Source: a virus
Length of the DNA stretch: 21,582 nucleotides
Direction: 5' to 3' (one strand)
Virus record (IMG/VR): IMGVR_UViG_3300037247_000928
Location: 1 to 21,582 of that record
Position numbers and translations under genes: made by a program. Positions 1 to 17,128 of the stretch are shown one piece after another. Under the pieces are notes generated by a model. That model had not been told where the DNA came from and searched no databases. It saw nothing but the letters and a program-made list of their open reading frames with translations. Position 1 is the first letter of the stretch, and the number at the start of each line of letters is the position of its first letter.

Positions 1-291
1 CTTGTTCTGCTCCACCGCCGGCACCATGTACGGCCTTGCCGGCATCTTTGCCGTGCCCACCTCCAGGTAGCCGCCGTAGCCACTTTGCGTAAACAACCGC
101 CCGGTTAGTTTTGCCTTGTCAACGTCCGTGTCAATGCTGCGCTTGTTCGTACCCCTGCGCTCCGGGCTACCCTCCACCGCAGCAGTTTTAATTTCCTCCT
201 CTAGCGCCCCCTCCATGCCGTCGCCAATCGCTTGGCGCAACTTTGCATCAAACTGCCCGCGCCGCAAGTTTAGTTTCAGCTCCAGCTTCAT
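1..291 (-). CDS. HK97 gp10-like neck/tail-completion protein, 3' end cut by window edge
   Basis: I translated this by hand because the frame is open from an ATG at 291 to the left edge (97 residues, no stop). It begins MKLELKLNLRRGQFDAKLR and contains the family-typical C-terminal signature: a Tyr-Gly-Gly-Tyr-Leu-Glu-Val-Gly-Thr stretch followed by MPARPYMVPAVE. This matches the HK97 gp10 family pattern (aromatic, E-x-GT, then P-x-x-P-A), whose members sit between head closure and tail tube and help join or complete the tail. The start overlaps the stop of the head-closure gene by 4 nt (ATGA), which implies translational coupling. Position after the connector and closure genes supports the call. 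The C-terminus is not visible. Confidence 0.78.
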   Translation of the reverse strand, partial: MKLELKLNLRRGQFDAKLRQAIGDGMEGALEEEIKTAAVEGSPERRGTNKRSIDTDVDKAKLTGRLFTQSGYGGYLEVGTAKMPARPYMVPAVEQNK

Positions 292-611
292 AGCCTCACC
301 CGCTCCAATAGCACCTCCAGGTGGTGCCCCTGCCCACCCGCATCCTGCACCTGCAAAATGCCATACCGCTGGCCATCCTGCTCAATTTGGTCTTGTTCCG
401 TCAGTGCGCGGTTTTCCAGGTACAGCACAAAGCCGGCAATCTTGACCTCGGTCCCGACTTTTATTTCGCGCCCGCGCAAGTCAGCTTGCATCAAACAAGC
501 CACATTTGGTACCAGTACCTCCGTGTACGTGGCCCGCCCGTAGCCGCCTGCTGCCGCCTTCGTGCGTTCCACCACCGTGCAGGTTTGCGTCAACAACTCT
601 GCAAAGCTCAC
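288..611 (-). CDS. Head closure / head-tail joining protein
   Basis: A 107-residue protein starting at a GTG (611) with GAGGAGG about 10 nt upstream. It is all-beta in character. The fold-typical order is visible: a short N-terminal TCTVVERT strand, a middle VACLMQADLRGREIKVGTE segment, and a C-terminal QRYGILQVQDAGGQGHHLEVLLERV. That last segment resembles the 'Y-x-I-x-x-V-x-D-x-G-x-x-x-H-x-E-V-x-x-E' pattern of SPP1 gp16 / HK97 gp9-like head-tail joining proteins. These form the ring under the connector that closes the DNA-filled head. It lies 4 nt after the connector gene and overlaps the gp10-like gene, which is the usual neck-gene order. Family assignment is by pattern and neighbourhood, not by a search. 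Confidence 0.75.
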   Translation of the reverse strand: MSFAELLTQTCTVVERTKAAAGGYGRATYTEVLVPNVACLMQADLRGREIKVGTEVKIAGFVLYLENRALTEQDQIEQDGQRYGILQVQDAGGQGHHLEVLLERVRL

Positions 612-615
612 AATC

Positions 616-1008
616 TTAGCCCCTCCTCATGGCGTTCTTTTCCATTATTTCGTACCAGCTAAATACCGTGTGCGTCTGTTCGGCCACCTCAAAGGCCGGT
701 GCTTCCTCCGACAATGCCCGGTACAGCGCGGCCGTCTTTAGCAACGCTTCGGACATGCCCTTGGTATCGGTCTTGAAGTCGCCCAGGCCCTCCAACTTGT
801 GCAGCAATGCTGCGTTTACCGCCAGCGCCTCCAACAGTTCGGCAGCCGCAAGGTTCAGGTCACCGCCCACCGTATCAAAAGCCAGCACGGCAGTAATTTC
901 CTCATCTTGCCACAACTGGCGCACGGGGTTTGCTGTATCCGTATCCCGTATCTTTAGCCGCACCTTATCCTTGTCGGTTGGTAGCGTTGGGTTGTATGTG
1001 AAACTCAT
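616..1008 (-). CDS. Head-tail connector (adaptor) protein, gp6/gp15-like
   Basis: A 130-residue, largely helical protein. The N-terminus DKDKVRLKIRDTDTANP followed by LWQDEEITAVL is typical of phage gp6-like/SPP1 gp15-like connectors ('D-x-V-R-x-x-I-G-D-T-D ... L-x-D-E-E-I'). A helix then follows with AAAELLEALA and a lysine-rich turn. Twelve copies of such proteins form the adaptor ring on the portal. The ATG at 1008 has GGGAGG 7 nt upstream and overlaps the end of the upstream 767-residue gene by 4 nt. It is followed after 4 nt by the head-closure gene. Confidence 0.78.
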   Translation of the reverse strand: MSFTYNPTLPTDKDKVRLKIRDTDTANPVRQLWQDEEITAVLAFDTVGGDLNLAAAELLEALAVNAALLHKLEGLGDFKTDTKGMSEALLKTAALYRALSEEAPAFEVAEQTHTVFSWYEIMEKNAMRRG

Positions 1009-3308
1009 TCCATTGCCTCCCTATGCGGTATTGGCAAACCTGCCGCCCGGCGCAAATCCTCGCGCACGTGCCCACGGTAGAAAATCCTGTGCTGCGGCGC
1101 ACTCAGCGTGATTACCAGCGGTACTGTCTGTTCCAAAGCCCCAGCTTTGCTAATCAAATGCGTAGGCGAGCCAAGTTGTATAGCCAGTGGCGTGGCTTGC
1201 TGTAGGGTAACGGGGCCGCCCACGATGGCGTGAACCGGGGCGCTGAGCGCGGCGGCTAGCGGCGTAGCCTGCTGCAAGGTTACTGCGCCGGGTTGCACCG
1301 CATGCGTAGGTGCACCCAACTGCACGGGCAGCGGTGCCGCCGCCAGCACGACCAGCCCTGGTATTGCTGCATGCGTAGGGCTAACAAGTGAAATGGCTAG
1401 GGGCGTGCCCTGTGTAAGAGTTATCTCACTGCTGATAGCATGGGTGGGCGCGCCCAGGTTTACGGCTAGAGGCGTAGCCTGGGTCAACGTAACTGGCCCA
1501 GCAGTTACCGCGTGCGTGGGCGCGCCCAAGGTTATGGCCAGCGGTGTACCTTGTGTCAGTTGGCCGGCGGTTAAGATTGCGTGAATAGGTGAACCAAGAA
1601 CAACTGCCAAAGGGGTACCCTGCGTCAATGTAACAGGGCCGGCAGTTACGGTGTGCAATGGCGAACTGAGAGTTATAGGAAGCGCGGTGGCCGCCAAAGT
1701 TACCGGCCCTGGTGAAATGGTGTGTACAGGTGAACCTATACTGATACCAAATAGGGAAGTCTGCGTCAGTGTAATAGCCGTACTTATTTCATGCGTAGGA
1801 GAACTGATGGTAATAGCGAGAGGCGTAGCCTGTGTGAGCGTTACTGCGCCCGGCTGTATTGCATGCGTAGGTGCGGCCAGCGCAATGGCAAGCGCAGCGG
1901 TTTGCGTCAGCGTGACGGCCCCGGCGACAATAGCATGCACAGGAGCGCCAAGGCTAATTCCGAACAAATTACCCTGTGTTGCGGTTTGGAGGGTGGTTAG
2001 CGTAACGCCGCTGTAGACCCCGGCCACCTGCTGCTTGTGAACGTCCAGGATGACGCTGCCCGGATCAGTAGGTAAAAGAACAAGAGGAAGGTGAGGAACA
2101 AAGCTGGAGCGGCGCTTGTTCTCCTCGGCGGGGTCGCCCACCGCCGCTAACTCCATCGTCACCGCCCAGATGGTACGCTGCTGCCCGGCGGGAGTTCCAG
2201 TTACATCGTCCACGCTAGCGTCAAGGTCAACCGTATGGGCAGCGTTACTCAGATTGGCAAGGGTACTAAGTAAGAACGGGTCTTCATCGCCATCATAATT
2301 ACTGTCATAGCGGAAATCATACGCATCCGTCGTTTGTCCTGCCGGCTGGTCGGAATTATCTACCTGGACACGAAATTTGGCGAGGCGCGCACCGGCGTTC
2401 TTATCAAAGCCCCAATAAGCCCCCATCCAAACGTCGCCCGTTACGGTCGGCGTTATAGAGGCTGTTTGGAGTTCAGTAGCGTAATCGGTAGCCGAGAGAT
2501 TTTCATCCGCCTCGGTATAGGCGAAGGCGTGCCGGTCAAACTTGTTCAGGTTGAGCGCGAAGATGGTCGAGTGCAGACGGATAGGCGAGCCGGATTGGGC
2601 GGTAGATTTCTCCTTAAAGGTATTCGACGCCGCGCCCAACGTAAAGACCCGCGCCATACCATGCAGAATCCCGGAAGAATCGGCCTCTTGCAGACCTACA
2701 TCCGCCTGTGGCAGTGAAGAAGTTGCCTCGCCTGAACGGTCAAGAACCTGAAGTACCCGGTCGGTATCGACAACCGGATCATACTGCGCTGTCACCAGCA
2801 CCAGCCAGTCGTCGCTGGCCGTTCCAGGCGTGAACGTGATGGATGCGCCATCCGTCGGCGTCCCGCTTAGCGTATCATCCGTACTCCGTTCATTAAAGAA
2901 CCAGTCAGTATCCTCAGTTACATCGTCGCTTAGGTTGATGGCCAGCATCGCAACCTGGTCAACCCCCACGGTTTCGTCTGGATTGGATGCGTGGAATTGT
3001 AGTTTAATAGCTTCGCCGGAGACCGCTGTCCAGACGGTCAGGAAGGTATAAGTGCGGCGAACGCCTGCCCCGACTTGTTCCCGGTTTGATTCGGATTCCG
3101 CAAAGTCGGTCGAACCATGAAGAACTTTAAGATACGCTTGACGGTTGCCGAGGCTATTGGCTAACTGAGCGGTTATATAGAGGAGGTACTTTTTACCCAC
3201 CGTGAAGTTGCCAGAGGCTATGTTGGCCCCAGTTACATCCACGTAAGATATACTACTGGTGGTCTGGTTGGTGTTTTGCTCAGTGAAGGCGTGGGCAATC
3301 TCGGCCAT
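1005..3308 (-). CDS. Virion fibre-like protein: three beta-sandwich modules plus 13 short Pro-x-His repeats
   Basis: A 767-residue protein of unknown function, probably on the virion surface. Residues 1-128, 130-255 and 256-390 look like three related beta-rich modules; each has a Tyr/Trp-Leu-x-x-x-x-x-A/W core strand and a closing LAINLSDD-, FALNLNKF- or VTMELA-type strand. A linker follows (about 390-440). Then come thirteen 23-24-residue repeats (about 443-743) of the form LTQATPLAI-x-LGAPTHAI-xx-G-x-VT, and a charged tail with LRRAAGLPIPHREAME. There is no signal peptide or membrane segment. The ATG at 3308 has AAGG 9 nt upstream. It lies between the beta-helix gene and the connector gene, so a role as a head fibre or decoration is inferred. 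The N-terminal modules resemble domains I recall from environmental phage structural proteins, but no named family can be assigned. Confidence 0.7.
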   Translation of the reverse strand: MAEIAHAFTEQNTNQTTSSISYVDVTGANIASGNFTVGKKYLLYITAQLANSLGNRQAYLKVLHGSTDFAESESNREQVGAGVRRTYTFLTVWTAVSGEAIKLQFHASNPDETVGVDQVAMLAINLSDDVTEDTDWFFNERSTDDTLSGTPTDGASITFTPGTASDDWLVLVTAQYDPVVDTDRVLQVLDRSGEATSSLPQADVGLQEADSSGILHGMARVFTLGAASNTFKEKSTAQSGSPIRLHSTIFALNLNKFDRHAFAYTEADENLSATDYATELQTASITPTVTGDVWMGAYWGFDKNAGARLAKFRVQVDNSDQPAGQTTDAYDFRYDSNYDGDEDPFLLSTLANLSNAAHTVDLDASVDDVTGTPAGQQRTIWAVTMELAAVGDPAEENKRRSSFVPHLPLVLLPTDPGSVILDVHKQQVAGVYSGVTLTTLQTATQGNLFGISLGAPVHAIVAGAVTLTQTAALAIALAAPTHAIQPGAVTLTQATPLAITISSPTHEISTAITLTQTSLFGISIGSPVHTISPGPVTLAATALPITLSSPLHTVTAGPVTLTQGTPLAVVLGSPIHAILTAGQLTQGTPLAITLGAPTHAVTAGPVTLTQATPLAVNLGAPTHAISSEITLTQGTPLAISLVSPTHAAIPGLVVLAAAPLPVQLGAPTHAVQPGAVTLQQATPLAAALSAPVHAIVGGPVTLQQATPLAIQLGSPTHLISKAGALEQTVPLVITLSAPQHRIFYRGHVREDLRRAAGLPIPHREAME
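1080..1982 (-). repeat. Thirteen in-frame 69-72 bp coding repeats
   Basis: The 3' third of the 767-residue gene is a tandem array of 13 units, each 23 or 24 codons. The DNA copies are diverged, but motifs such as GCATGCGTAGG (plus strand) recur at several copies, which fits duplication followed by drift. In protein terms every unit keeps Pro-x-His (APVH, APTH, SPTH, SPVH, SPLH, SPIH, APQH). Two short beta-strand-like segments lie between the units. The array is in frame throughout, which argues for selection on the protein. Confidence 0.85.
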
Positions 3309-3330: not shown

Positions 3331-4992
3331 CTATGCTCCTGAGATCATCTTCGCGCGGGTAAAGGTGCCGCTCACCAGGCTCAGGGCCGCCTTGGCGATC
3401 TTCACGTCCGCGTCGCTGTAAACGCCCAGCTCCGAGCCCGTGGTTATGTTTTGGTTTCGCAGCGCCATGTAGAACAGCATCAGCGCCGACGCGATGGTCG
3501 GGGTGGCGGCGGGGATGCCCTGCGAGAGCTCGGGGATCGTGTCCACCGTTAGCCCGTCCACGACCTCGGCGTTCACGTCAGCCTTGGCCTGGGTGGCGAG
3601 CTGCTCGGCCTGGGCCTGTACCAGCTGGCTCACCAGCGCCAGGGGCGCGGTCGTCAGCCAGAGCTTCAGGTCGGCCGGCACCTTGCCGCTCGACAGCACG
3701 TCGGGCGCGGCGCCCAGCCACTCCTTCAGGTCGGCGTGGACCATCCCGTCCGCCTCGGTGGCGATCAGGTTAGCCGGGGTCGCCAGCACCTTGCCGGCGG
3801 CGTCCGTGCCGGCCTCGGCCGCTATCGTACTCCTCGACAGGGCGGCATCCTCGGTGAGATCGGTGGTGGTACCGTTGTCGGTGATGGTCATGTTGCCGCG
3901 CGCGGCTACCGTCAGGCTGGTGCAGGTGGCGCCTATGATGAGCTGGCCGTCGCTCTCGTAGCTCACGGTGTCAAGGGCGGTTCCGCTATTAAGCTGCATC
4001 CCTCCTGAGTAGTGCCGGATGTTGAGGTTGGTAACACCCGCCCCCGGAAAGGTGAGCTCTGGCGTATTGTTTCCCGCGACCGCGCTGTGGCATCCAGCGA
4101 AAATTATGTTCGTTGACGCACGGAGGGTACTGTTACCCGTCAACGCGCAACCATAGGCAAAGCACTCCAGGGCCAACAACCCCGTCAGTTCGCAATCGTG
4201 CATGTGGATTCGGTCTGCTCCGCCCTGGGTGCCGGTCACGGAGAGAGAAATGAACGTCGAGTTATCCACGTCCTGGGAACCCAGATTGACCTGGTTATTT
4301 CCCCCAATGCCGACAAACTCGTAGTCCTCCATCAGGGCGACGAGCGTAATGTTAGAGTCGTTAACAAGGTAGATGCGGTCGAGGCTCATGCTATCGGCCA
4401 GGGTCTTGGCTGCGCCGATGGTGGAAACGGGGTTGCCCACGGTGCCGTCAACGCCGTTTGCGGTATTGGTGTTGCCGGCGGCGTCGTCCAGGTAGACGCC
4501 AAGGCCACGCGGCCCCAGGTAGGCGGGGTAGAACCCCTCGTTGCCGTCGAACACGGTTTCGGCATTGTCGGCGGCAGGCGCAGAACCACTAATGGCGGTC
4601 ATGTTCGCTCCAACTTCTCCAGCAGCACTTACGCCAAGCCTTCTCCCGTTGGTGACGGGCATGAGGGCGGCGCGGTTCTCGATACTAAACGAGGCCACCA
4701 CGTAGCCCACAGCAGAGATGCCGCCTATGGTGCCAACCGATATAACCACTTGGTATTCTTGTCCTATGCCGAAACCGTTGGCGGCGGTGGCAGCGATTCG
4801 ACAGTTGTGCAGTCCGGTTAGCCCATCGAAATCTAGGGTCAGGACTTCAGCCACGGTTATTTGCGTGATGGAATTGTCCTCATATACCTCCACCACGCCG
4901 CCAACTAGGGTGACGGGCAAGCCGGTGTTATCAACCGTGGTAAACTTGAAATCGAAAGTTGCCTCTAAAGCAAAGTCGCCTAAGTAGTTCAT
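3331..4992 (-). CDS. Beta-helix fibre-like phage structural protein
   Basis: A 553-residue protein. The N-terminal part (1-110) is a beta-rich attachment-type module (MNYLGDFALEATFDFKFTT ... YQVVISVG ... ASFSIENRAALMP) of a kind found at the start of many phage fibre-like proteins. Residues about 155-380 look like a right-handed parallel beta-helix: VDGTVGNPVSTIGAAKTLAD is the usual entry (a 'GT-x-x-NP-x-x-T-x-x-x-A' segment), followed by regularly spaced short strands with G, N, D and C turns. The C-terminal 90 residues (DVNAEVVDGLTVDTIPELSQ onward) are helical and end in TFTRAKMISGA. This tail region is also common in phage proteins of this type. Beta-helices in phages often bind or cleave polysaccharide, but no catalytic residues could be identified. 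The start overlaps the upstream stop (ATGA), with GAGGG upstream. The 3' portion is richer in G/C than the rest. Confidence 0.72.
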   Translation of the reverse strand: MNYLGDFALEATFDFKFTTVDNTGLPVTLVGGVVEVYEDNSITQITVAEVLTLDFDGLTGLHNCRIAATAANGFGIGQEYQVVISVGTIGGISAVGYVVASFSIENRAALMPVTNGRRLGVSAAGEVGANMTAISGSAPAADNAETVFDGNEGFYPAYLGPRGLGVYLDDAAGNTNTANGVDGTVGNPVSTIGAAKTLADSMSLDRIYLVNDSNITLVALMEDYEFVGIGGNNQVNLGSQDVDNSTFISLSVTGTQGGADRIHMHDCELTGLLALECFAYGCALTGNSTLRASTNIIFAGCHSAVAGNNTPELTFPGAGVTNLNIRHYSGGMQLNSGTALDTVSYESDGQLIIGATCTSLTVAARGNMTITDNGTTTDLTEDAALSRSTIAAEAGTDAAGKVLATPANLIATEADGMVHADLKEWLGAAPDVLSSGKVPADLKLWLTTAPLALVSQLVQAQAEQLATQAKADVNAEVVDGLTVDTIPELSQGIPAATPTIASALMLFYMALRNQNITTGSELGVYSDADVKIAKAALSLVSGTFTRAKMISGA

Positions 4993-5702
4993 TGTGCCCT
5001 CACTGCGTGATGTCTTACCTGCGCCAGTCCCGCGCCCTGCCCGACTACCCCCGTCTTCGTCACCGTAATCCTCGGCACCTGGGTATTGGCCATGCCAGGA
5101 TTGCCGCCGTTGTAGCGCACCCGAAACTCCACGTAATCCCCGTCAACAAAGTCAGCCGAAACCAGCAACAGGCCCCAGACCAGCTCGGTAAAGTTGTTCG
5201 CCGTCAGTTGAAAGTTTGCCAGCTCCGCGTCGGATACCATCTGCTCGCCGGCGACAAAGGAGCCCGGCCCATCAGTGAGGCCGTCCGTTCCCCGGTTGGT
5301 TGTAGCCGCGCCGTCGGTCAGAGCGCTACCGGCGTCCATCTGAACGCGGTCGGTTGCGCCTGTGGGAATTATCCATGATCCCCCGCCATTTAAACGGTAT
5401 TGGAGCTCGTAGTCGTCAATGGTGTTTCCGTCAATATCCCCAGCGCCCACCTCATCCATCAAAAGACGAAGTTGGATTTGGGAATCTGAATCTACGTTGC
5501 GGCCAGTTACGTTTACGTCCTCGTTGGCAACCGGGCTTGACCCCGCCTCGGTGCCATCCTCGTAGAAGCGGAAGTGCGTTATGTCCGGGGCAAACTCGTC
5601 GTGGCCGAACAGCGCCCAGGGGCCAGAGTATAGATAGCTTTCCCGTACCAGGACTACGCCTGTCTCGATGTCGAGTACGACCTTAGTGGTGACGCGCTTC
5701 AA
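4989..5702 (-). CDS. Uncharacterised phage structural protein (beta-rich)
   Basis: About 237 residues if it starts at the TTG at 5702, which has AAGAGG 7 nt upstream and gives MKRVTTKVVLDIETGVVL. An ATG at 5738 would add 12 residues and overlap the upstream gene by 56 nt. An ATG at 5777 is also open but has no good ribosome site. The 'T-T-K-V-V-x-D-I-E-T-G-x-V-L ... YSGPWALF' opening is common in phage virion-associated proteins of unknown role. The rest is beta-rich: ITHFRFYEDGTEAG, a YELQYRLNGGGSW strand, and a C-terminal VEFRVRYNGGNP strand of a jelly-roll or fibronectin-like fold. It overlaps the next gene by 4 nt. It is likely co-expressed with the fibre-like proteins; its function is unknown. 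Confidence 0.66.
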   Translation of the reverse strand: MKRVTTKVVLDIETGVVLVRESYLYSGPWALFGHDEFAPDITHFRFYEDGTEAGSSPVANEDVNVTGRNVDSDSQIQLRLLMDEVGAGDIDGNTIDDYELQYRLNGGGSWIIPTGATDRVQMDAGSALTDGAATTNRGTDGLTDGPGSFVAGEQMVSDAELANFQLTANNFTELVWGLLLVSADFVDGDYVEFRVRYNGGNPGMANTQVPRITVTKTGVVGQGAGLAQVRHHAVRAQ

Positions 5703-5982
5703 TTTTCGCCCTCTTTTTAATTGCCCAATAGTCCTCATCCCGGATTGTCCGCCCAAACAATACAGCCTTGGGGCCAACGTACATCTTCATGTAGTCCCAA
5801 TAGCCGTCAAGGTCGCACCCATTCCAACCGCCAAGGTCGGGGTTCCAGTAGTAAGCGTCCTTCCCACACTGGGTCTTTCCATTATTGTTGACGGCCTGTA
5901 CGTTGTTTTGCGGGGCATGGAAGGGGTCACCATCCTCACTGCTGAAAGTTGACCCATCGCCGTAGTAGATTGTCCAGGCCAT
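5683..5982 (-). CDS. Uncharacterised small phage protein (MAWTIYYGDGSTF type)
   Basis: A 99-residue protein starting MAWTIYYGDGSTFSSEDGDP. It is rich in Tyr, Trp, Asp and Gly in the first 70 residues and basic at the end (KKRAKIEARHH). The opening and the VLFGRTI segment are ones I recognise from phage genes in the same position, which carry no known function. GAGGG lies 5 nt before the ATG. It overlaps the following gene by about 20 nt (or 56 nt, depending on the start). A GC-rich hairpin (6012-6032) separates it from the preceding gene. It could be a chaperone or minor component for the fibre-like proteins, but that is only inferred from position. Confidence 0.65.
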   Translation of the reverse strand: MAWTIYYGDGSTFSSEDGDPFHAPQNNVQAVNNNGKTQCGKDAYYWNPDLGGWNGCDLDGYWDYMKMYVGPKAVLFGRTIRDEDYWAIKKRAKIEARHH

Positions 5983-6011
5983 CGTTGCCCTCTGCCCAGC
6001 ACTAGCGGTTA

Positions 6012-6032
6012 GGGCCGGCTATGGGCCGGCCC
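6012..6032 (-). terminator. GC-rich hairpin after the 147-residue structural gene (no U-tract)
   Basis: A perfect 8-bp inverted repeat, GGGCCGGC / GCCGGCCC, with a 5-nt loop (arms 6012-6019 and 6025-6032). It begins about 10 nt after the stop codon on the minus strand. No run of T follows, so a classical intrinsic terminator is doubtful. An mRNA 3'-end stabiliser or processing site is equally possible. Confidence 0.45.
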
Positions 6033-6042
6033 CACCCGGCCG

Positions 6043-6486
6043 TTACGTCAGTTGCAGGATGCCCTCGGCGTTCCACGCAATGTCCACATTGCCGCCGTTG
6101 GTTACAAGCGGCAGCCCCGTCAGCGTGTCCAGGTACGCAATTACCACGCTGGTGGTATCCACGCCCGTATTCTTGAAGACGATTACCGCCGCAATGGTGC
6201 CAAAGTCCGCGCCGGTGTACGCCAAATCGTCGGCATTGTACTCGGCCCGGTTGTTGGGGTCGTCCTCTACGATGGTTTTGGTGGCCAGCGATTTACGCGC
6301 ATAGCCGGCACCGCTCAGCTCGGCGTCAACAATGTCGCTAGCACCGCTCTCATCGATGAAATCATGGTCGGCGTCAGGCGTGTACGGGGTGCTGGCAATA
6401 AGCAAGACCTGGATGTCATCGACCACTAGGTCGATGGTGCCATCCATAATCTGCTTTTTCGCAAGGTTGTAAAATACATCGGCCAT
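6043..6486 (-). CDS. Phage structural protein of unknown role
   Basis: 147 residues from the ATG at 6486, which has GGGAGG about 9 nt upstream. The frame stays open to 6552, but that extension would be translated through the 6517-6548 hairpin and has no ribosome site, so I reject it. The protein reads MADVFYNLAKKQIMDGTIDL, then VLLIASTPYTPDADHDFIDE, GAGYARKSLATKTI, NRAEYNADDLAYTG and a C-terminal NGGNVDIAWNAEGILQLT. This pattern (LL-x-x-S-x-Y-x-P-x-x-D, GYAR-x-x-L, and a closing W-N-x-x-G-I-L-x-L) is shared by a widespread group of phage structural proteins encoded near head and neck genes, with no experimental function I know of. Hairpins flank the gene on both sides, so its level may be set independently of its neighbours. 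Confidence 0.72.
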   Translation of the reverse strand: MADVFYNLAKKQIMDGTIDLVVDDIQVLLIASTPYTPDADHDFIDESGASDIVDAELSGAGYARKSLATKTIVEDDPNNRAEYNADDLAYTGADFGTIAAVIVFKNTGVDTTSVVIAYLDTLTGLPLVTNGGNVDIAWNAEGILQLT

Positions 6487-6516
6487 TTCGTTTTGCCTCC
6501 CTCTGTCTAGTACAGT

Positions 6517-6548
6517 GCCGGGGGCAGCTTGTAGCGCCGGCCCCCGGC
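6517..6548 (-). terminator. GC-rich hairpin after the major capsid gene (no U-tract)
   Basis: A perfect 9-bp inverted repeat, GCCGGGGGC / GCCCCCGGC, with a 14-nt loop (arms 6517-6525 and 6540-6548). It starts 27 nt downstream of the capsid stop on the minus strand. No T-run follows it. It may end or attenuate the capsid transcript, or protect the 3' end of the highly expressed capsid message. Confidence 0.5.
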
Positions 6549-6575
6549 CCATACTTATTGCGGGGCTGCTCCCTT

Positions 6576-7733
6576 TTAGGTTGTGAAGCCGCCCGTTTCC
6601 ACCCGCGTCCGACGCGGGTCGAGGCGTACACCGCCCATGATGTGCCGGGCACGTACCCAGATAACGTCGTTCCAGAAGTCACCTTCCAGGGGCGAAATCG
6701 GGGCACCACCCGCAGCTACCTTGTCGCTACTCTTAAACACCACCTCAGGTGTAACGCGGCCGCGCAAAAAGTTCAGCACTGCCGCCGGCCCATCTACACC
6801 CGGGTCGGCAAACAAGTACCAGCAGCTCACACCGTTAGTGGTGTTCACAATCGGCAAGTACGGGTTGGTGTGCGGCGTGACGTTGTACAGCTTGGCGGGG
6901 TTGCGCGAGCCACGGATGGTTACTGCGCCAGCCGTGCCAGCCGCCACAATCGTCTCGCTTTCCAGCACTTCAAACATCTTGGTACGCCCAGCGGGCGGTA
7001 CAACCAAATGGATCTTTTCGATGATGATTGGTTCACCATCGAAGTCCACCTGGTCGGCCATATCCTGAATGGCTGGCCCAAGCGTATCCACGCCCAAGAT
7101 GCGCGCGCTGAGGTTGGTGATCGACGTGCCATCGAGCGGGTGCGTCACCGGCGCACCGTACAAGCCCGTGTGCGGCGCGGTCGGTTCGGCAATCAGCTTG
7201 GTCGCTTCCTTCCAAACCGTCCGCCTTGCCGCCCGCGCAAAGCGCGCCGCAGGTGCCAGCGCGCCCAGGTTGTCGTTCAGCAGGCTTTCCCAGCTATAGG
7301 GGTAGGCACGGCCAAACTTCTCGAGCACTGATTCGACCTTGCCCTCCTTGATGGCCACGCCCGTGTACTCGCCGTGCTCCAGCACCTTCGGTAGCGCACC
7401 CTCGCCGCCATGCGCCGACAACCAATCCTTTGACCGGAAGTCGTTTTGGATGCCTTGCCCGATATACCCAAACACGTCGGGCTCGGCTGCCTTGTACGCT
7501 GCTACCAACTGGCGCTCCAGCACGTTGCTAAACAACAGCGGGAAGTCGCTCGTGGTTGCGGCTTCAAAGATGCGCCGCCGCCGCTCGTAGGGCGAGAGGC
7601 GGGTGTCGCAAATCAGGTTGTTCACCTCGGCCAGCCTGCGTTGCAGGTTTGGTATGTTACGTTGCCGCAACAGGTCGCGGGCCGCAATGAACGTTTCGGT
7701 CATGGGGATGTGCTCCAATGCTTCACGTTGCAT
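6576..7733 (-). CDS. Major capsid protein (HK97-fold type)
   Basis: A 385-residue protein of the size expected for a phage major capsid protein. After a helical N-terminal region (MQREALEHIPMTETFIAARD), EAATTSDFPLLFSNVLERQL opens the body in the way I know from gpT/HK97-like capsid proteins ('T-T-S-D-F-P-x-x-L-x-x-x'). Next comes LEHGEYTGVAIKEGKVESVL, then FGRAYPYSWESLLNDNLGAL ('G-R-x-x-x-x-S-x-x-x-L-I-N-D-D-L-G-A'), which corresponds to the E-loop/spine-helix region. The protein ends with a beta-rich P-domain and GGVRLDPRRTRVETGGFTT. The ATG at 7733 has GGGAGG 8 nt upstream. It follows the decoration protein and scaffold genes and is followed by a strong hairpin. HK97-type fold membership is inferred from pattern and context. 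Confidence 0.86.
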   Translation of the reverse strand: MQREALEHIPMTETFIAARDLLRQRNIPNLQRRLAEVNNLICDTRLSPYERRRRIFEAATTSDFPLLFSNVLERQLVAAYKAAEPDVFGYIGQGIQNDFRSKDWLSAHGGEGALPKVLEHGEYTGVAIKEGKVESVLEKFGRAYPYSWESLLNDNLGALAPAARFARAARRTVWKEATKLIAEPTAPHTGLYGAPVTHPLDGTSITNLSARILGVDTLGPAIQDMADQVDFDGEPIIIEKIHLVVPPAGRTKMFEVLESETIVAAGTAGAVTIRGSRNPAKLYNVTPHTNPYLPIVNTTNGVSCWYLFADPGVDGPAAVLNFLRGRVTPEVVFKSSDKVAAGGAPISPLEGDFWNDVIWVRARHIMGGVRLDPRRTRVETGGFTT

Positions 7734-9657: not shown

Positions 9658-10080
9658 TTACCCTCCCTTGACGGCTGCTCCCTGGTTGCCCTTAACGTAA
9701 GCATCGAACTCGGCCCGCACACCCGCCAACTGTGCCAATCCCTCATCAAGGCGCTTTTGCAATGAGGCACTGTTGCCCTGCTCGCGTGCAAGGTGTTCCT
9801 TGAAGCTCTCTTTCTCCTTCTGGCACGCCACAAGCTGCTTTTGCAGTGCGCCGCACCTGGCTACTTCCAGCAGTAGCGCCTGCTTGCCTGCGCCCTTGGC
9901 CTGGTCACACTTGGTTGCAGGCACGATCACCCGCTGCCCTGGTGCGCACTCCACCGCCACTTGGTTCCCGCCGTGGCGGCCTACTACCTTGCCCGACAGT
10001 GCAACTAATGCACCATTAGGTATTTCCTTACCGCCGCCATCCAACCATACCAACTTACCGCTTGCTGCTTCTGCCACCAT
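9658..10080 (-). CDS. Small coiled-coil protein of unknown function
   Basis: A 140-residue protein with a GGAGG site 9 nt before the ATG at 10080. Residues 1-55 are short strands and Gly-rich turns, including GKVVGRHGGNQVAVECAPGQ, and could form a small beta-barrel. Residues about 65-130 look like a coiled coil (LQKQLVACQKEKESFKEHLA ... SLQKRLDEGLAQLAGVRAEF). I recognise no family. It lies between the MuF-like minor head protein and the prohead protease, so a minor internal head or scaffold-associated role is possible; this is only positional inference. The 75-nt gap upstream (10081-10155) contains its ribosome site and no other feature I can see. Confidence 0.6.
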   Translation of the reverse strand: MVAEAASGKLVWLDGGGKEIPNGALVALSGKVVGRHGGNQVAVECAPGQRVIVPATKCDQAKGAGKQALLLEVARCGALQKQLVACQKEKESFKEHLAREQGNSASLQKRLDEGLAQLAGVRAEFDAYVKGNQGAAVKGG

Positions 10081-10155
10081 TTTGTTTTCCTCCGGGGGCG
10101 CACAACCTTGCTGGGTGTACGCTGATGGAATTTTGCTGCATTGCGAAACTTTGCC

Positions 10156-11037
10156 TCATCGCCGTAGCCTCTTCGTAACCAACGTGCAGTGGCAGTCGGG
10201 ATGGAATGGTGGCCGCTGATGGCCGCTGGGGAAGGCTTGGTCAATAGGCATGGCCCCGGCCTGGTGATTGTTGATGCAAACGGGGCACGGGTTTATCCGG
10301 CTGAGCACGGTAGTCTTGCCGGGCGCATTCCGTGCCTGCATCTTTTGCAGCATAGCTTCCGACATGGCATCATTGATTTCCGTTGTGGCAATCAAGTTCG
10401 AGCGCCGCACGGACATGTCCAACAGCTCGCGGCGTATTAAGCGCCCCGTCCCCTCCACGCCCAACTTGTCCCGTATGCCCCGCGCTATCAACTGCGCCAT
10501 GCGCTGCTGCGTTTGCAGGTTTATGCCAGTAACCAACTGCGCCGCCCGTTGTGCTGCAAACTGCGATGCCGCTAGTGCGGCTGGGCCGGGCACTTCAAAG
10601 GTCTCGATGGCTTGCTCGCGCAACCAAATCATCTCCCCCGCTTCGTTCAGCTCCACCTGCTCGCCCTGCTTCAAGCCGGCGCGCATGGCGCTGTCCAAAC
10701 TGAGCAGCAGTATATTGAACAGCAGCTCGGTCAGCCCATCCACCACCGGCTTGACCGTGTGCGCTGCTACATCCCTGCCCAGGTTTACCTCGTTCTGCGT
10801 TGCTGCCCGCTCGCCACCATCTGCATCCCCAGGCTGCGGCCCATATTGCAGCACAAGTTGTTCCAGTCCTATGTCCTCAACGGCCCTACGCAGGCGGCGG
10901 AAGTAAAAGGCCAAGTCTTGTTTCAAGATGCGCTGTATGCGCGCACCCTCAGGGCTTTGCAACCCTACCGCCTCTAATACGTGGCGCATGCGTGTAAACG
11001 CCTCCGCCAGTACCCCGTTATGTAGTGATAAACCCAT
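10156..11037 (-). CDS. MuF-like minor head protein
   Basis: A 293-residue protein with a long helical N-terminus (MRHVLEAVGLQSPEGARIQR). The C-terminal domain carries a SNLIATTEINDAMSEAMLQK helix and then PCPVCINNHQAGAMPIDQAF ending in RPPFHPDCHCTLV. The order 'R/S-x-x-x-I-A-x-T-E ... C-P-x-C ... G ... P-P-x-H-P-x-C-x-C' is the diagnostic signature of the Mu F / SPP1 gp7 minor head protein family (PF04233). The Cys/His set probably binds zinc. These proteins sit inside the head near the portal and are needed for assembly or DNA delivery. The start overlaps the end of the upstream 114-residue gene by 20 nt, and no strong ribosome site is visible. Confidence 0.85.
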   Translation of the reverse strand: MGLSLHNGVLAEAFTRMRHVLEAVGLQSPEGARIQRILKQDLAFYFRRLRRAVEDIGLEQLVLQYGPQPGDADGGERAATQNEVNLGRDVAAHTVKPVVDGLTELLFNILLLSLDSAMRAGLKQGEQVELNEAGEMIWLREQAIETFEVPGPAALAASQFAAQRAAQLVTGINLQTQQRMAQLIARGIRDKLGVEGTGRLIRRELLDMSVRRSNLIATTEINDAMSEAMLQKMQARNAPGKTTVLSRINPCPVCINNHQAGAMPIDQAFPSGHQRPPFHPDCHCTLVTKRLRR

Positions 11038-11362
11038 CTGGTATTTCTATATCCCTTTGCCAATCGCGATAGCCTTCCGGGTTTGCCAGTGGTATGGCCC
11101 AGGTAAGTGGAGCCATGTTTGTGTGCACGTGGTAATGCTCAATCAGAAACGCTGCCCGCGCCGGGTGCATGTGGTTCGGGTGTTTGCGCGCGAACCACGC
11201 CGGGAACCACACCTTCCAGGGCGGTACGTACACCAGGCGGATGCTGCCGCACACTAGGCACAGCATGCGTATAGATGCACCTACGCACATGGCCCACCTA
11301 TCTGTGCGTTTGTAACGGAACAGTATCCAGGGTGCCTTTGTTTCGTATGTGTCGTAGGCCAT
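11018..11362 (-). CDS. Small Cys/His/Trp-rich protein between portal and MuF genes
   Basis: A 114-residue protein I cannot assign. It starts at an ATG that shares one base with the portal stop (TAATG), so it should be translationally coupled to the portal. It contains WILFRYKRTDRWAMCVGASI, then MLCLVCGSIRLVYVPPWKVW, then FARKHPNHMHPARAAFLIEH and YHVHTNMAPLTW. The CxxC, an earlier Cys and the cluster of His residues in the middle could hold a metal ion. Small CxxC genes inserted in the head module are uncommon. It could be a moron gene, a packaging accessory or an internal virion protein; nothing in the sequence decides between these. Confidence 0.6.
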   Translation of the reverse strand: MAYDTYETKAPWILFRYKRTDRWAMCVGASIRMLCLVCGSIRLVYVPPWKVWFPAWFARKHPNHMHPARAAFLIEHYHVHTNMAPLTWAIPLANPEGYRDWQRDIEIPDGFITT

Positions 11363-12948
11363 TACATCACACTCCCTGCTTCCATTAAGTCACAAACCCT
11401 ATGCACCGCCGCCGCCAACGCCTCCACCTGCCCCGCCTGTGGCTGCGCACCCGCCGCCGCCCCTGGCGGTTGGCCTGCAACGGGTGCACCAGGGGCGGCA
11501 ACGGGTGGGTTCGCTTTGGCTTCCTCCTCGCGCTCCTTGCGCTTCTTCATAATGGCCTCAACAATTTCCGTTACGTTGTTTACGCCCGCCGCCGCAAACA
11601 CCAACGCAATTATCTCAGCCCGCTCCGCCAGCTCGGGCACAACGTCCTTCAGTTTCTGCAAGGCATCGGCCAGCTTGGGCAAATCCTTTTGAATAATGGG
11701 CGGCCAATCCACGTCAAGCTCGGCCTTCTTAACCTTAACCGCCTGCCGGGCCAACACGTACCTGTACAAATCCAGGTACACATCCGTCCACAACTGCTGG
11801 TTCATTTCGAATCCCTTTAGTATGGGCAGCTCCATTGCCGTCGCCGTGGCCAAATTGCCCGTCCGTGGGTCTCCGAAATAATGGAGTGGCAGGTTGACAC
11901 TGGAGCCAAACATGGTTTTGAACAGGTCGGCATCAGCCGTAGCGTTTACTGCGCCCGTATCCTGCTTTTGCAGTTCGAGTTTTAGCCCCTGGTTTTGCAG
12001 CCACGTGCTTGCCGCAGCCGGCGGCGGGTTGCGCTCCGTACCGCCCGTTGCCGTTAGCGTGGTGGTCAGCCGCGCTTTCAAGTCCTTCAACGCTTTGCCA
12101 CTGCCCTTGTTGGTAAGGTGGTAAACGTAGCGGGCCACAGCCTGTATAACTGCGCTGCGGGCCTGCATGAACTTCCGGTTCTCTCGGCTCCAATCCAACC
12201 CGCTTTCCAGCAAGCTCGCACCCCACAACCCCAGCGGCTCGTTCGCCACGTGGTACACCACCACATCAGGCTGCACCGGCTTCCCCTGCCCATCCACGCG
12301 CAGCACCGCCTCATCCGGCGCTGCCCAATCCCGGTAATACATGGCCTTGTCCTCGCTGCCGGCCTTGCCGGGTACCATGCGCTTATAGAACCACGGCTCC
12401 TCGGCATCCTCGGGGTTGGTAATTATTTCGGTTACTTGTCTGCTATCCAAGCGGCGGAATACAAAGCCACTATCGGTATCAAATATGGCCACAAACAAGT
12501 CGCCATCTATCAGCAGGCGGTTGCTGTTCTTTTGTTGCCCCTGCGCGCTAAAGAAGGTGCGGTTGCGCGGATCCAGCCGCAGTTCTTCCAGTATGCTCGC
12601 CGCCCGGCCCTTAGCGGTAACGCTGTGCCCGGTGCCCACGCTGTAGGCCGTCCACAAGCGCACGGCTTGGTGCGACAGTGGGTCACGACGGTAGAAGCGG
12701 CGCGCTATCGGCAGCACGTTCTCGCGCGTGGGTAGATCCATCTCGCTGCCCACCAACGCCGTGCGCAGCCACCCCCTATCCTCCAGCGCCAACTCCAGTG
12801 CGGCTTGCGAACCGAAGGCTTCCTGCATCATTTCGGGCGGCAACTGTTCCATTGCCTCCACTACCTGCAACGCATCGCGCAGCAAGCCCGGATCGCCTTC
12901 CATTAACTGCCCATTGCCGCTGCCGTTTCCTTTTGCTTTACGGGCCAT
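11362..12948 (-). CDS. Portal protein
   Basis: A 528-residue protein of the size of phage portals, which form the twelve-subunit ring through which DNA enters and leaves the head. Visible portal-like features are ENVLPIARRFYRRDPLSHQA and VRLWTAYSVGTGHSVTAKG at the start of the core, a LLIDGDLFVAIFDTDSGFVF strand pair, VVVYHVANEPLGLWGASLLE in the middle, LFKTMFGSSVNLPLHYFGDP in the stem/tunnel-loop region and a long C-terminal helical region (ILKGFEMNQQLWTDVYLDLY). The tail (470-528) is low-complexity Pro/Ala/Gly followed by a helix. GAGGGG lies 7 nt before the ATG. The terminase-portal-MuF order supports the call; I did not assign a portal subfamily. Confidence 0.85.
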   Translation of the reverse strand: MARKAKGNGSGNGQLMEGDPGLLRDALQVVEAMEQLPPEMMQEAFGSQAALELALEDRGWLRTALVGSEMDLPTRENVLPIARRFYRRDPLSHQAVRLWTAYSVGTGHSVTAKGRAASILEELRLDPRNRTFFSAQGQQKNSNRLLIDGDLFVAIFDTDSGFVFRRLDSRQVTEIITNPEDAEEPWFYKRMVPGKAGSEDKAMYYRDWAAPDEAVLRVDGQGKPVQPDVVVYHVANEPLGLWGASLLESGLDWSRENRKFMQARSAVIQAVARYVYHLTNKGSGKALKDLKARLTTTLTATGGTERNPPPAAASTWLQNQGLKLELQKQDTGAVNATADADLFKTMFGSSVNLPLHYFGDPRTGNLATATAMELPILKGFEMNQQLWTDVYLDLYRYVLARQAVKVKKAELDVDWPPIIQKDLPKLADALQKLKDVVPELAERAEIIALVFAAAGVNNVTEIVEAIMKKRKEREEEAKANPPVAAPGAPVAGQPPGAAAGAQPQAGQVEALAAAVHRVCDLMEAGSVM

Positions 12949-13177
12949 TGCTGATCCCCTCTTCCAGGCCGCCTATTACCTCGCCCGGCCCCAAGTCTTT
13001 CAAGCGGTTGGCCAGCGTAGCCACCGCCAGCCCTAGTAAGTTATCGGTGCGCTGCTGCGAGTGCAGCACATCCCACATCGCTTGCCGCACCAGCACTGGT
13101 TCCGCCCTTGGGCAATCCACCATTATCGCCGTCAGCTTTACCTGCACATCAGGCTTTACGCGCTTCCGCTTAGCCAT
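12938..13177 (-). CDS. Small basic protein of unknown function
   Basis: A 79-residue protein between the terminase and the portal, overlapping the portal start by 11 nt. The N-terminus is strongly basic (MAKRKRVKPDVQVKLTAIM). The body is helical (VLVRQAMWDVLHSQQRTDNL, VATLANRLKDLG) and ends acidic and Gly-rich. AGGTGG lies upstream of the ATG at a long spacing. Basic small proteins at this place could bind DNA or assist packaging, but I recognise no family. Confidence 0.55.
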   Translation of the reverse strand: MAKRKRVKPDVQVKLTAIMVDCPRAEPVLVRQAMWDVLHSQQRTDNLLGLAVATLANRLKDLGPGEVIGGLEEGISNGP

Positions 13178-13213
13178 CAGCTAATTCCACCTGCGCCACT
13201 GTCGCCTCGGCCA

Positions 13214-15037
13214 TTACGTCACCACCCCAAAGCCGTATTCATCTGGCTCATCCAACCCCTCGCTTATGGGCGGCATGCCTTCCTGCGTGTCGTCAATTAA
13301 CACGACATCCTCGTCCTGCCCCACGCCCATTAGCAAGTACCGCAACCCGTGCACCAGCACATCCACCTGATCGTTGTATTGGCCGTTGGGGAACTGCGCG
13401 CATTCCTCAATTAAGTCATACGTGTACCGCGCCTCGCGCAACACCTGCACCCAACCCGCTTGCATGTACCCGGTTACGCTTTGCGCCCGCAGCACCTTGT
13501 CCTGCACCGGCGCAGGCAGCAGCGTAATGGGTACTTGCGGCCAATCGGGGCGGCGGCCCTGGCCTGTTATAACGGCTTGCACAAACGAAATCCCGCTGGC
13601 CTTTGGCTCCACCTTAACCGCGTTCACCATCAACCCGGCATCCACTGCACGCTTGTATTGCAGGTACGCTTGGGGTAGGAGCCGCGTCCACTCCAACTTT
13701 TCACGAAACCATTGGAGAACGAGCACAGCCCCCGGCATCAACCCAAACGTACCGCACACACTGTAGCTGCTGCCTTTGTTTTCCGTGTACCCCGTATCCC
13801 ATATCTGCACCACATGCAGGTAGCCGCCCGGCAAGCGGTCGGTAAACTTCCACCACGCACGCTTAATGATTTCCCCCGCCGGCACGTGCGGGTTGCCCTG
13901 GCACATGCCCTCAAAGCGCAGCGGCCCCAGCTCCAACCGCTTTACCTGTTCCTGCGCCTCGCCTATGCGTTCAGGCCACAGTAACCCGCCCTCGGCAGCC
14001 AGCCCGTTGGCCGGGCCGTCGGCGTCAAGGTGGGCACCCATAATACATTCGCTATCAGCTCCCACAATCGCAGTACGTGGTTTCAGCACACCACCTACCT
14101 GGAAGGGGGAGCCGCCTACGCCCCGGAGCGGTTCTTTTGTGGGTGACGCAGGCGGCTTGGTCGTGGCACTACGGGGTTGCTTTGTTGCGGCGGGGGGGGG
14201 TTGTGCTGTTTGGCCAGTGGTACTGCGTAGGTATTGCAGTATGCCGCTTTCGAAGTGAACCATTTCAGGGCTACGCTCAAAGTGCAACGTCTGCTCGGGC
14301 GGCAGCTTAGCGCAAAATGGGCACAGCGCCTTGCCGCCATACCCGCGCATGGGCATGTGCACTACCAGCCAGCCCTGCTCCTGCATCCAGCGCGCTATAT
14401 CCCGTTCGTGCCAACGCGTCATTACTGCAATGGCCCGCCCGCCCTCATGCGCCGGCAGTATGCGCGACATGAAGGTGGTGCTAATCCATCGCTGCACCTT
14501 TTCCCGTTGCAGCTCGGTGGCACTGTTCTCTTCGTCCATGATGTCGTCGAGCAGGCCAAGTGTAAAGCGCCGGCCCAAAATGGGGCCATACATACCGGCG
14601 CAAACGTAGCTGGGATCCTTGTCGCCCGGATCGTCCCGCCGCAAGTACCACCTATGGTTCGCCCAGCCCTTCAAGTAATCAGGCTGCACGCCAGGGAAGC
14701 GTTCCTGGTAGCGCGGGTTATCGCAGATGGTGTCGCGCACCGCAATGCTGTTGGCCTGCGCCTGCGTAGCTGTGTTGCATACGTGGCCAAAGTGTAGCGC
14801 CCGGTTCCGCCCTATCTCCCACGCCGGCCATACCACGCTTACCCAGGTAGTTTTCGCATGGTCAGGCGGCGCTACAATCAGCAGCCGTTGCAGCGTATGG
14901 TCTTGCAGCAGATCGCACCACAGACGATGATGGGGGGCAGGCTTGAAACCGTGCACGTACTCGCCATACTTGGCTAATTCAGTGCGGGCCAACTTTTGCA
15001 GCATGCGCTCTTGCAAGTCCGAGGAGTGCGTTCGCAT
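13214..15037 (-). CDS. terL: Terminase large subunit (DNA-packaging ATPase and nuclease)
   Basis: About 607 residues from the ATG at 15037 (GGAAG upstream). The frame is open to a GTG at 15115 and also has an ATG at 15004. The motor pumps DNA into the prohead and the nuclease cuts it. The Walker A-like segment VAPPDHAKTTW lies at about 55-65 (Asp where Gly is usual). Walker B is LGLLDDIMDEE at about 161-171, and AVMTRWHERD (about 204-213) is the coupling-motif region. The RNase H-like nuclease has QIWDTGY (Asp at about 414), VEPKASG (Glu at about 477) and NDQVD (Asp at about 556 and 559), so all acidic residues are present. Between the two domains there is an unusual insertion of about 90 residues (CPFC, then a Pro/Thr-rich linker). 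It overlaps the small subunit by 59 nt. Confidence 0.9.
   Translation of the reverse strand: MRTHSSDLQERMLQKLARTELAKYGEYVHGFKPAPHHRLWCDLLQDHTLQRLLIVAPPDHAKTTWVSVVWPAWEIGRNRALHFGHVCNTATQAQANSIAVRDTICDNPRYQERFPGVQPDYLKGWANHRWYLRRDDPGDKDPSYVCAGMYGPILGRRFTLGLLDDIMDEENSATELQREKVQRWISTTFMSRILPAHEGGRAIAVMTRWHERDIARWMQEQGWLVVHMPMRGYGGKALCPFCAKLPPEQTLHFERSPEMVHFESGILQYLRSTTGQTAQPPPAATKQPRSATTKPPASPTKEPLRGVGGSPFQVGGVLKPRTAIVGADSECIMGAHLDADGPANGLAAEGGLLWPERIGEAQEQVKRLELGPLRFEGMCQGNPHVPAGEIIKRAWWKFTDRLPGGYLHVVQIWDTGYTENKGSSYSVCGTFGLMPGAVLVLQWFREKLEWTRLLPQAYLQYKRAVDAGLMVNAVKVEPKASGISFVQAVITGQGRRPDWPQVPITLLPAPVQDKVLRAQSVTGYMQAGWVQVLREARYTYDLIEECAQFPNGQYNDQVDVLVHGLRYLLMGVGQDEDVVLIDDTQEGMPPISEGLDEPDEYGFGVVT
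14006..14332 (-). other. Atypical insertion between the ATPase and nuclease domains of terL
   Basis: Between HMPMRG (end of the ATPase domain) and GGLLWPERIGEAQEQV (start of the linker to the nuclease), related terminases have about 25-30 residues, while here there are about 110. The stretch holds CPFC, then QPPPAATKQPRSATTKPPAS, and then KEPLRGVGGSPFQVGGVLKP. The coding DNA includes a run of nine C (G9 on the plus strand at 14192-14200). It looks like a separate low-complexity element spliced in frame. Confidence 0.55.
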
Positions 15038-15467
15038 CGCTGCTTCCAAGTTGGTCAATCCAACTGTGTTCGTGGACAATCCGCGCCTCCAGGTGTTGCA
15101 ATACATCTGGTTCACCGCGAAATCTCATGTACAGGGCCAGCAGGGTTTCAAACTGTTCCAGCGACAGCTCAACGACGTAGGCTTCCAGCTTTTCCTTTGT
15201 GCCACAATGGTACTCCCACCACTTGTCGCACACCTGCTTCAACCGCGTTGCCCACGCCAGCTTTACCTCCACCACTGGCCCGTTGCAGGCTTCATCAATG
15301 GCAGCCCGCGTGGACGACTTACGCTGCTCATACCGCTCCTGCCAGTTGAAGGCTTTCTTCCACCGCTGCACCGTCAGCCGCGCAACCGTAAGCTCTCGCG
15401 CTACACGCACGATGGGATTGTTCATAGATTGTGCAAGTGCAGCGGCATAGATTTCATACGCTTGCAT
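14979..15467 (-). CDS. terS: Terminase small subunit (DNA-recognition)
   Basis: About 162 residues from the ATG at 15467. The frame is open upstream to a TTG at 15602, but that extension (HHRNPLDTTAPTTASCAAV...) is low-complexity and has no ribosome site. The N-terminus AYEIYAAALAQS leads into a helix-turn-helix, NPIVRVARELTVARLTVQRW, followed by KKAFNWQERYEQ. This is the arrangement of many phage small terminases ('A-x-x-x-x-L-G-V-S-x-x-T-V-x-R-W ... F-x-W-x-x-R'), which bind the packaging site and load the large subunit. The middle is helical (VKLAWATRLKQVCDKWWEYH) and could be the oligomerisation region. The 3' end overlaps the large subunit. The ribosome site is weak (AGG 4 nt from the ATG). 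Confidence 0.74.
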   Translation of the reverse strand: MQAYEIYAAALAQSMNNPIVRVARELTVARLTVQRWKKAFNWQERYEQRKSSTRAAIDEACNGPVVEVKLAWATRLKQVCDKWWEYHCGTKEKLEAYVVELSLEQFETLLALYMRFRGEPDVLQHLEARIVHEHSWIDQLGSSDANALLGLARAHAAKVGPH

Positions 15468-15642
15468 ATGCCTGGGGGTTTCGTTGGGGGTGTTACGCTG
15501 TGTACCCCTCGGTGTTTTGCTGTTGCGTGCCACGGCTGCGCAGGATGCAGTAGTTGGGGCAGTGGTGTCAAGCGGATTGCGGTGGTGTTGAGCAGTTGGC
15601 AACTAGGGGAAGGTGGGGTTAAGTAGTAGCAGCGGCAGGGGG
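15468..15642 (-). other. Longest gene-poor gap; repeated CTTAACCCC motif before terS
   Basis: No convincing gene lies in these 175 bases. On the minus strand CTTAACCCC occurs twice within 30 nt (plus-strand positions about 15610-15655), set in C-rich sequence. A TTGACA lies at 15561-15556, but no good -10 follows at 16-18 nt. Packaging start sites often lie in or next to terS, so this is a candidate recognition region, by position only. Confidence 0.3.
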
Positions 15643-15839: not shown

Positions 15840-16361
15840 TCAACCTTTTTTTTGGGCTTCATACCCCTTCCACACCTGTACGGGCTGCGCGTAGGGGGTG
15901 TAGAGAGGATGGCGCGGGTGCCCCTCCGCCGTTGTGCCCAAGCAATAGCAGGTATAAGTTGCGAGCAACAAATTAGAAACAACCTGGGCACGTAGCAGTA
16001 ATTTGTCGTGGGGGTTGCCCCAGGCAAGCATGATGCGGTCGGCAGTTTCCGCAACGGTGCTTATGGTATCCATGTTAGCCGGGCCAATGGGGTCGCCGGC
16101 CGTCAGCAGGTTGTCCGGTGCAGTAGAACGAAAAGCGAACAAATTACAAATATGCAGCCTGCCGTGCCCCCACAGTTGGGCGAAGCGGATACAGCGACGG
16201 ATGGTAGGGTCATTGGCAATACTGCTGGCCGTGCTGGGGTTAAGCATTACGAACAAAACCGTAAGGCCATTGGGCTGCCACATGCGCCACAGTTTGTAAC
16301 GGTACTTGCCGCACGCGCTAAACTCGGCACCGCTAAAGTCATCCAACGATAGAGTTTTCAT
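15840..16361 (-). CDS. DUF1643 family protein
   Basis: A 173-residue protein that matches the DUF1643 pattern closely. It has WQPNGLTVLFVMLNPSTASS ('F-V-M-L-N-P-S-T-A-x-x'), then NDPTIRRCIRFAQLWGHG ('D-D-P-T-I-R-R-C-x-x-F-A-x-x-W-G-x-G'), HICNLFAFRSTAPDNLLTAG with DPIGPAN, IMLAWGN, and a C-terminal CLGTTAEGHPRHPLY ('C-L-G-x-T-x-x-G-x-P-x-H-P-L-Y'). The family is found in bacteria and phages and has no established biochemical role that I know of; the conserved N, D, H and W residues suggest an enzyme. A ribosome site (AGGG) lies 9 nt before the ATG. It sits in the run of small phage genes, likely as an accessory protein. Confidence 0.85.
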   Translation of the reverse strand: MKTLSLDDFSGAEFSACGKYRYKLWRMWQPNGLTVLFVMLNPSTASSIANDPTIRRCIRFAQLWGHGRLHICNLFAFRSTAPDNLLTAGDPIGPANMDTISTVAETADRIMLAWGNPHDKLLLRAQVVSNLLLATYTCYCLGTTAEGHPRHPLYTPYAQPVQVWKGYEAQKKG

Positions 16362-16758: not shown

Positions 16759-17128
16759 CCGCGTCCTCCAATACCGCCTGCGCATCGGCAATATCTTTTA
16801 GCACCGCTTGGCCCTCTGCTCCATCCAGCCCATCCTCGTTGTAGATGGCAGTGTCGATTGCCGTAATGCAACGCAGGAACACGGTACCGAATAAGTCGCG
16901 CTCCACCCGCAGCAGCTCCACCAACACCTTCGCTTGCAGCGCCAGTTCCACAATATCGTTATACTCCGCAAACGCCAGTGCCTCCCACCGCTCCGCATCA
17001 CCTTTGGGTGGGTTGGCCACTATATCGCGGGGGAAGCGTTCGAACACGTAGTTGTGTTTCTCTATGCGTGCCAGTTGTCGCGCTTGCAACCCAACAATCC
17101 AATCCAGTTTTTCTTTTACAGCACTCAT
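16742..17128 (-). CDS. Helical protein of unknown function
   Basis: 128 residues from the ATG at 17128, chosen because GAGGAGG lies about 8 nt upstream and the ATG overlaps the previous stop by 4 nt. Almost wholly helical: MSAVKEKLDWIVGLQARQLA, then ALAFAEYNDIVELALQAKVL, VELLRVERDLFGTVFLRCIT and a C-terminal VLKDIADAQAVLEDAGAKKV. There are no cysteine pairs, unlike its neighbours, and no family I recognise. Confidence 0.62.
   Translation of the reverse strand: MSAVKEKLDWIVGLQARQLARIEKHNYVFERFPRDIVANPPKGDAERWEALAFAEYNDIVELALQAKVLVELLRVERDLFGTVFLRCITAIDTAIYNEDGLDGAEGQAVLKDIADAQAVLEDAGAKKV

Follow-up and report, generated by a model that had tools for sequence, protein, structure and literature searches.

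Fibrous β repeats are a familiar kind of element in the appendages of phages. Several trimeric phage fibres and spikes, among them T4 gp37, the R-type pyocin fibre shaft and P2 gpV, carry HxH iron sites, octahedral metal sites built from six histidines (PMC6116203). T4 gp5 forms a triple-stranded β-helix from a VxGxxxxx octapeptide, one strand and turn every eight residues (PMC4576200). The β-bracelet of the Orsay virus δ head fibre, which projects from the capsid, advances by about eight residues per step through five-residue strands of alternating aliphatics, following (V/L)x2Vx4V with three-residue charged loops, whereas the trimeric triple β-spiral of adenovirus and reovirus fibres repeats a strand, a proline/glycine turn and a second strand every 15–17 residues or so, with about 17 residues per 15 Å step (PMC7565637). 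The tailed virus HFTV1 bears trimeric turrets on its capsid, with a deacetylase-like and lectin-like head, and coordinates zinc through histidines in its tail fibres (PMC12494034).

Here we describe a protein that recalls each of these shafts in part. The window, the whole stretch of DNA that was analysed, is a 21,582-base record of an uncultured tailed phage, and it encodes a 767-residue protein whose C-terminal part contains thirteen repeats of a P-x-H motif. As in the HxH fibres, conserved histidines run along what may be a β-structured phage appendage, where they might form rings of symmetry-related side chains; unlike those fibres, the protein has P-x-H with one histidine per unit, no H-x-H anywhere in its 767 residues, and no sequence match to them. 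It shares with T4 gp5 an eight-residue strand-plus-turn periodicity, but under a super-period of 23–24 residues, with no sequence match and without V-x-G columns in the repeats. The Orsay fibre has a similar strand spacing and alternation of aliphatics, yet it comes from an unrelated virus, and the present repeats have G/A/S/P loops in place of charged ones and a three-step super-period. The triple β-spiral alternates strands with proline or glycine turns, as the present repeats may do, but in steps shorter than the 23.5 residues per unit found here. HFTV1 turrets offer a parallel as trimeric surface appendages of a tailed-virus capsid, if the present protein is indeed a trimer; the parts of the HFTV1 account drawn on here report no such repeat.

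A thirteen-unit P-x-H array

The repeats occupy the C-terminal part of a single open reading frame, which divides as follows.

1005–3308, minus strand: gene of the 767-residue repeat protein (open reading frame, GAAGG preceding its start, ATGA overlap with the start of the connector gene that follows)
2018–3308, minus strand: N-terminal part, residues 1–430, charged (20% D/E/K/R), delimited by composition and domain self-alignment
1080–1982, minus strand: thirteen P-x-H repeats of 23–24 residues, residues 443–743, delimited by motif positions, column conservation and periodicity
1005–1079, minus strand: Arg-rich C-terminal tail beyond the repeats, from the translation of the open reading frame

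The motif begins at residues 456, 480, 504, 527, 550, 574, 597, 621, 644, 667, 691, 715 and 738, with successive spacings of 24, 24, 23, 23, 24, 23, 24, 23, 23, 24, 24 and 23 residues; its codons lie at nucleotides 1935–1943 in unit 1 and 1089–1097 in unit 13. The mean period is therefore 23.5 residues, and the strongest lag in a lag analysis is 47, or two units. When the C-terminal part was shuffled 20,000 times, P-x-H occurred 1.5 times on average and at most eight times, as against 13 in the real sequence. These positions and the shuffle test confirm the original prediction of thirteen units with P-x-H every 23–24 residues and, as a correction, place the array on the minus strand. On the plus strand, antisense open reading frames of 63 and 121 codons span the repeats (1393–2016); as genes these (for example 1651–2016, plus) were judged spurious and probably arise from the repeated codons. 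Searches for promoters, terminators, tRNAs and Rfam features gave none that bears on the array.

We aligned the units with the length change placed in the loop after P-x-H-x-I, where most of the variation between 23 and 24 residues falls (SSE or STA versus QPGA). Conserved columns are I/V2, V7, L9, Q11, P14, L15, I/V17, L19, P22 and H24. The hydrophobic columns alternate (7/9, 15/17/19 and 2), with P22, H24 and I2 in one alternation, and the repeats have a weak eight-residue sub-period (lag-8 z 4.4; P 0.015 by column permutation). This pattern suggests a unit of three eight-residue steps, in which V-x-L-x-Q, L-x-I-x-L and P-x-H-x-I each lead into a turn made up of G, A, S, P or T. Roughly three short strands per unit also appear in two low-confidence AlphaFold2 models, and together pattern and models favour three strands over the two that had been proposed. 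Since the histidine alternates with P22 and I2, it probably faces the hydrophobic-core side of its strand.

The array is rich in A, T, P and G, and just four of its 298 residues are D, E, K or R, against 19.8% of the N-terminal 430, so that hardly any side chain in the repeats other than histidine is ionisable. Several units contain T-x-T within a V-T-L-T-Q strand (1080–1982, minus). The same pattern occurs in ice-binding solenoids, and here it probably reflects β propensity and nothing more. The N-terminal residues 1–430 probably comprise three tandem β-rich domains, each some 125 residues long. The first two show a weak alignment to each other (25% identity, pairwise E 6 × 10−4), and a third copy is suggested.

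Proline and histidine persist in highly diverged units

Only the proline and histidine columns are invariant in all units, as had been anticipated when the rest of the repeat was described as drifting; L9 comes next, in 12 of 13. Elsewhere the units differ widely, with a mean identity between them of 47% in amino acids and 51% in nucleotides, and differences at 46%, 32% and 69% of first, second and third codon positions. At fourfold-degenerate sites the fraction that differs is 0.69, where random bases of the same composition would give 0.74; synonymous sites between units are thus close to saturation. The invariant prolines use all four codons (CCT 8, CCC 2, CCG 2, CCA 1), and the histidines use CAT seven times and CAC six. 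Because neither residue changes despite this near-saturation and the mixed codons, this comparison of units shows an old array in which selection has kept P-x-H.

It had also been proposed that recombination between units changes the length of the fibre. This finds no support, since unit DNA is highly diverged and the longest exact repeat shared between units is 14 nt, which argues against homologous recombination. The same divergence rules out recent duplication of units and makes it unlikely that repeat copies were collapsed in assembly.

The repeat gene lies between capsid and connector genes

The repeat gene belongs to a minus-strand operon that also encodes terminase (phrog_38), portal (phrog_10963), head morphogenesis, protease and decoration (phrog_122) proteins. 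Its neighbours, from downstream to upstream, are listed here.

288–611, minus strand: head-tail adaptor or head completion protein, 107 residues (phrog_1059, E 1.9 × 10−4; Phage_HCP below its cutoff)
616–1008, minus strand: putative head-tail connector, 130 residues (phrog_1732, E 1.9 × 10−7; matches the capsid-adjacent gene of Amigo)
3331–4992, minus strand: 553-residue protein without a family match, spike- or fibre-like by eye with a β-helix-like middle
4989–5777, minus strand: 262-residue protein in the same inserted block, without a family match
6043–6552, minus strand: 169-residue protein (phrog_644, function unknown, E 7.6 × 10−25)
6576–7733, minus strand: major capsid protein (Phage_capsid_4, PF25209, E 6.6 × 10−32)

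Five open reading frames, of 169, 99, 262, 553 and 767 codons, separate the capsid and connector genes. Arthrobacter phage Amigo has a gene matching the window's putative connector (34% identity, E 0.007 in a small search), and there it comes immediately after the capsid gene, from which we infer that the window carries an extra block 3′ of the capsid gene. The genes at 3331–6552 (minus; 169, 99, 262 and 553 residues) are absent between capsid and connector in Amigo, and searches of Pfam and PHROGs gave no significant family match for the 99-, 262- and 553-residue proteins. In a distant relative, different proteins are encoded behind the capsid gene, including one judged by eye to be concanavalin-like. 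The repeat protein is thus encoded where a phage appendage would be in a structural operon, which fits the fibre-like role first proposed for it. Its place between capsid and connector genes and the concanavalin-like protein of the relative lead us to prefer an appendage of the head or neck, the most likely location as judged from gene order.

Elsewhere in the window, the terminase large subunit (13214–15115, minus) has a Pro/Thr/Lys-rich low-complexity stretch, TTGQTAQPPPAATKQPRSATTKPPASPTKEP, in mid-protein, and two accessory proteins match families of unknown function (15840–16361, minus, phrog_3230, E 1.7 × 10−54; 17125–17628, minus, phrog_35792, E 6.1 × 10−39). One IMG/VR contig derives from the same phage (98.8% identity, 64 mismatches over 9954–15503) and stops short of the repeats.

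Queries for relatives of the repeat protein ranged from its full length down to dimers and single units, and also included a consensus repeat and artificial alignments forcing degenerate patterns, in which the extra rows were invented sequences that served only to steer the pattern search. None was confirmed in IMG/VR or in GTDB genome contigs, and nothing convincing emerged from INPHARED phages, PLSDB plasmids, Pfam, PHROGs, NCBIfam or the PDB. A weak match to a Halorubrum plasmid was rejected as the antisense of a low-complexity gene. An IMG/VR-wide scan for four P-x-H motifs at 47-residue spacing, which is blind to relatives whose spacing or residues differ, matched 117 stretches, and the loci examined among these contained no chain of at least four P-x-H in an open frame.

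Structural explanations for the array

The original prediction read the array as a β-solenoid or a trimeric β-prism. Modelled alone with AlphaFold2, as that prediction had suggested, the full protein reached a mean pLDDT of 40, with the repeats mostly at about 50–63; four units modelled with an alignment of the protein's other units reached 46. Neither model is usable as a fold, and a Foldseek search with the low-confidence model returned no match below E 0.2 (best E 0.21), so its matches were set aside as evidence. The regular, β-type repeat stands; neither of the two folds is confidently predicted or matched.

We favour, at about even chances, an oligomeric, β-structured shaft that belongs to a surface appendage of the virion and buries one histidine layer, probably symmetric, in each unit. 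On this account the protein would be a structural appendage of a tailed phage, a fibre, turret or spike, with the head or neck as its likeliest site. The β-rich N-terminal domains would be globular, and the C-terminal ~300 residues would stack 13 β layers into a rigid shaft. Each layer would be made of the three short strands described above and would contribute one histidine per chain, oriented like the hydrophobic core positions. An oligomer, of which a trimer is the likeliest form, would then place a ring of symmetry-related histidines every 23–24 residues, and these rings might fix hydrogen-bond register, bind a metal or an anion, or act as pH-sensitive joints. A densely packed shaft of this kind fits the scarcity of charged residues in the repeats.

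The array might instead be a monomeric three-sided β-solenoid with one 23–24-residue coil per unit, whose histidines and prolines would line up as ladders with a spacing of ~4.8 Å, either at one edge or within the core. A three-sided coil agrees with the three steps of eight residues, and the weak model draws mostly β-helix chains in Foldseek, though at the insignificant scores given above. A tight histidine ladder would, however, be unusual, and AlphaFold2 is reported to over-predict confident solenoids for perfect or near-perfect repeats (PMC11795689), so that its low confidence here (pLDDT ~46–63) counts weakly against a solenoid, the bias having been shown for perfect repeats. We regard this fold as possible but on balance unlikely.

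Within the oligomeric shaft that we favour, the histidine layers could bind a transition metal (Fe or Zn) at up to 13 sites, in line with the metal binding that the original prediction raised. The one invariant histidine per layer and the known trimeric phage fibres that bind these metals through histidine make metal binding possible by analogy; yet H-x-H is missing, and three histidines per layer would supply half of a six-histidine octahedral site, which leaves this sub-case improbable. Still less probable is a role for the histidines as a pH switch or in binding an anionic polymer of the host surface: thirteen of them against four charged residues make them almost the sole chargeable groups of the repeats, but their alternation with conserved proline and isoleucine suggests burial. 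Weakest of all is the reading of the array as an irregular, flexible linker rich in Pro, Ala and Thr, which would suit the low AlphaFold2 confidence and the A, T, P, G-rich composition but hardly the strict aliphatic alternation, the nearly invariant L9 and I/V columns, or a proline and histidine that outlast near-saturated divergence, patterns that linkers do not usually keep.

Discussion

Whether the oligomeric shaft favoured here would amount to a new class, an uncharged rod of three eight-residue steps per unit with a buried histidine ring serving as metal site or pH joint, seems doubtful at present. If its oligomeric fold is correct, the repeat would offer a possible modular rod for protein engineering. 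A nearly uncharged repeat in which proline and histidine alone are invariant is a natural test of what periodic histidines do in a viral shaft, one that would distinguish roles in register, metal binding and pH sensing.
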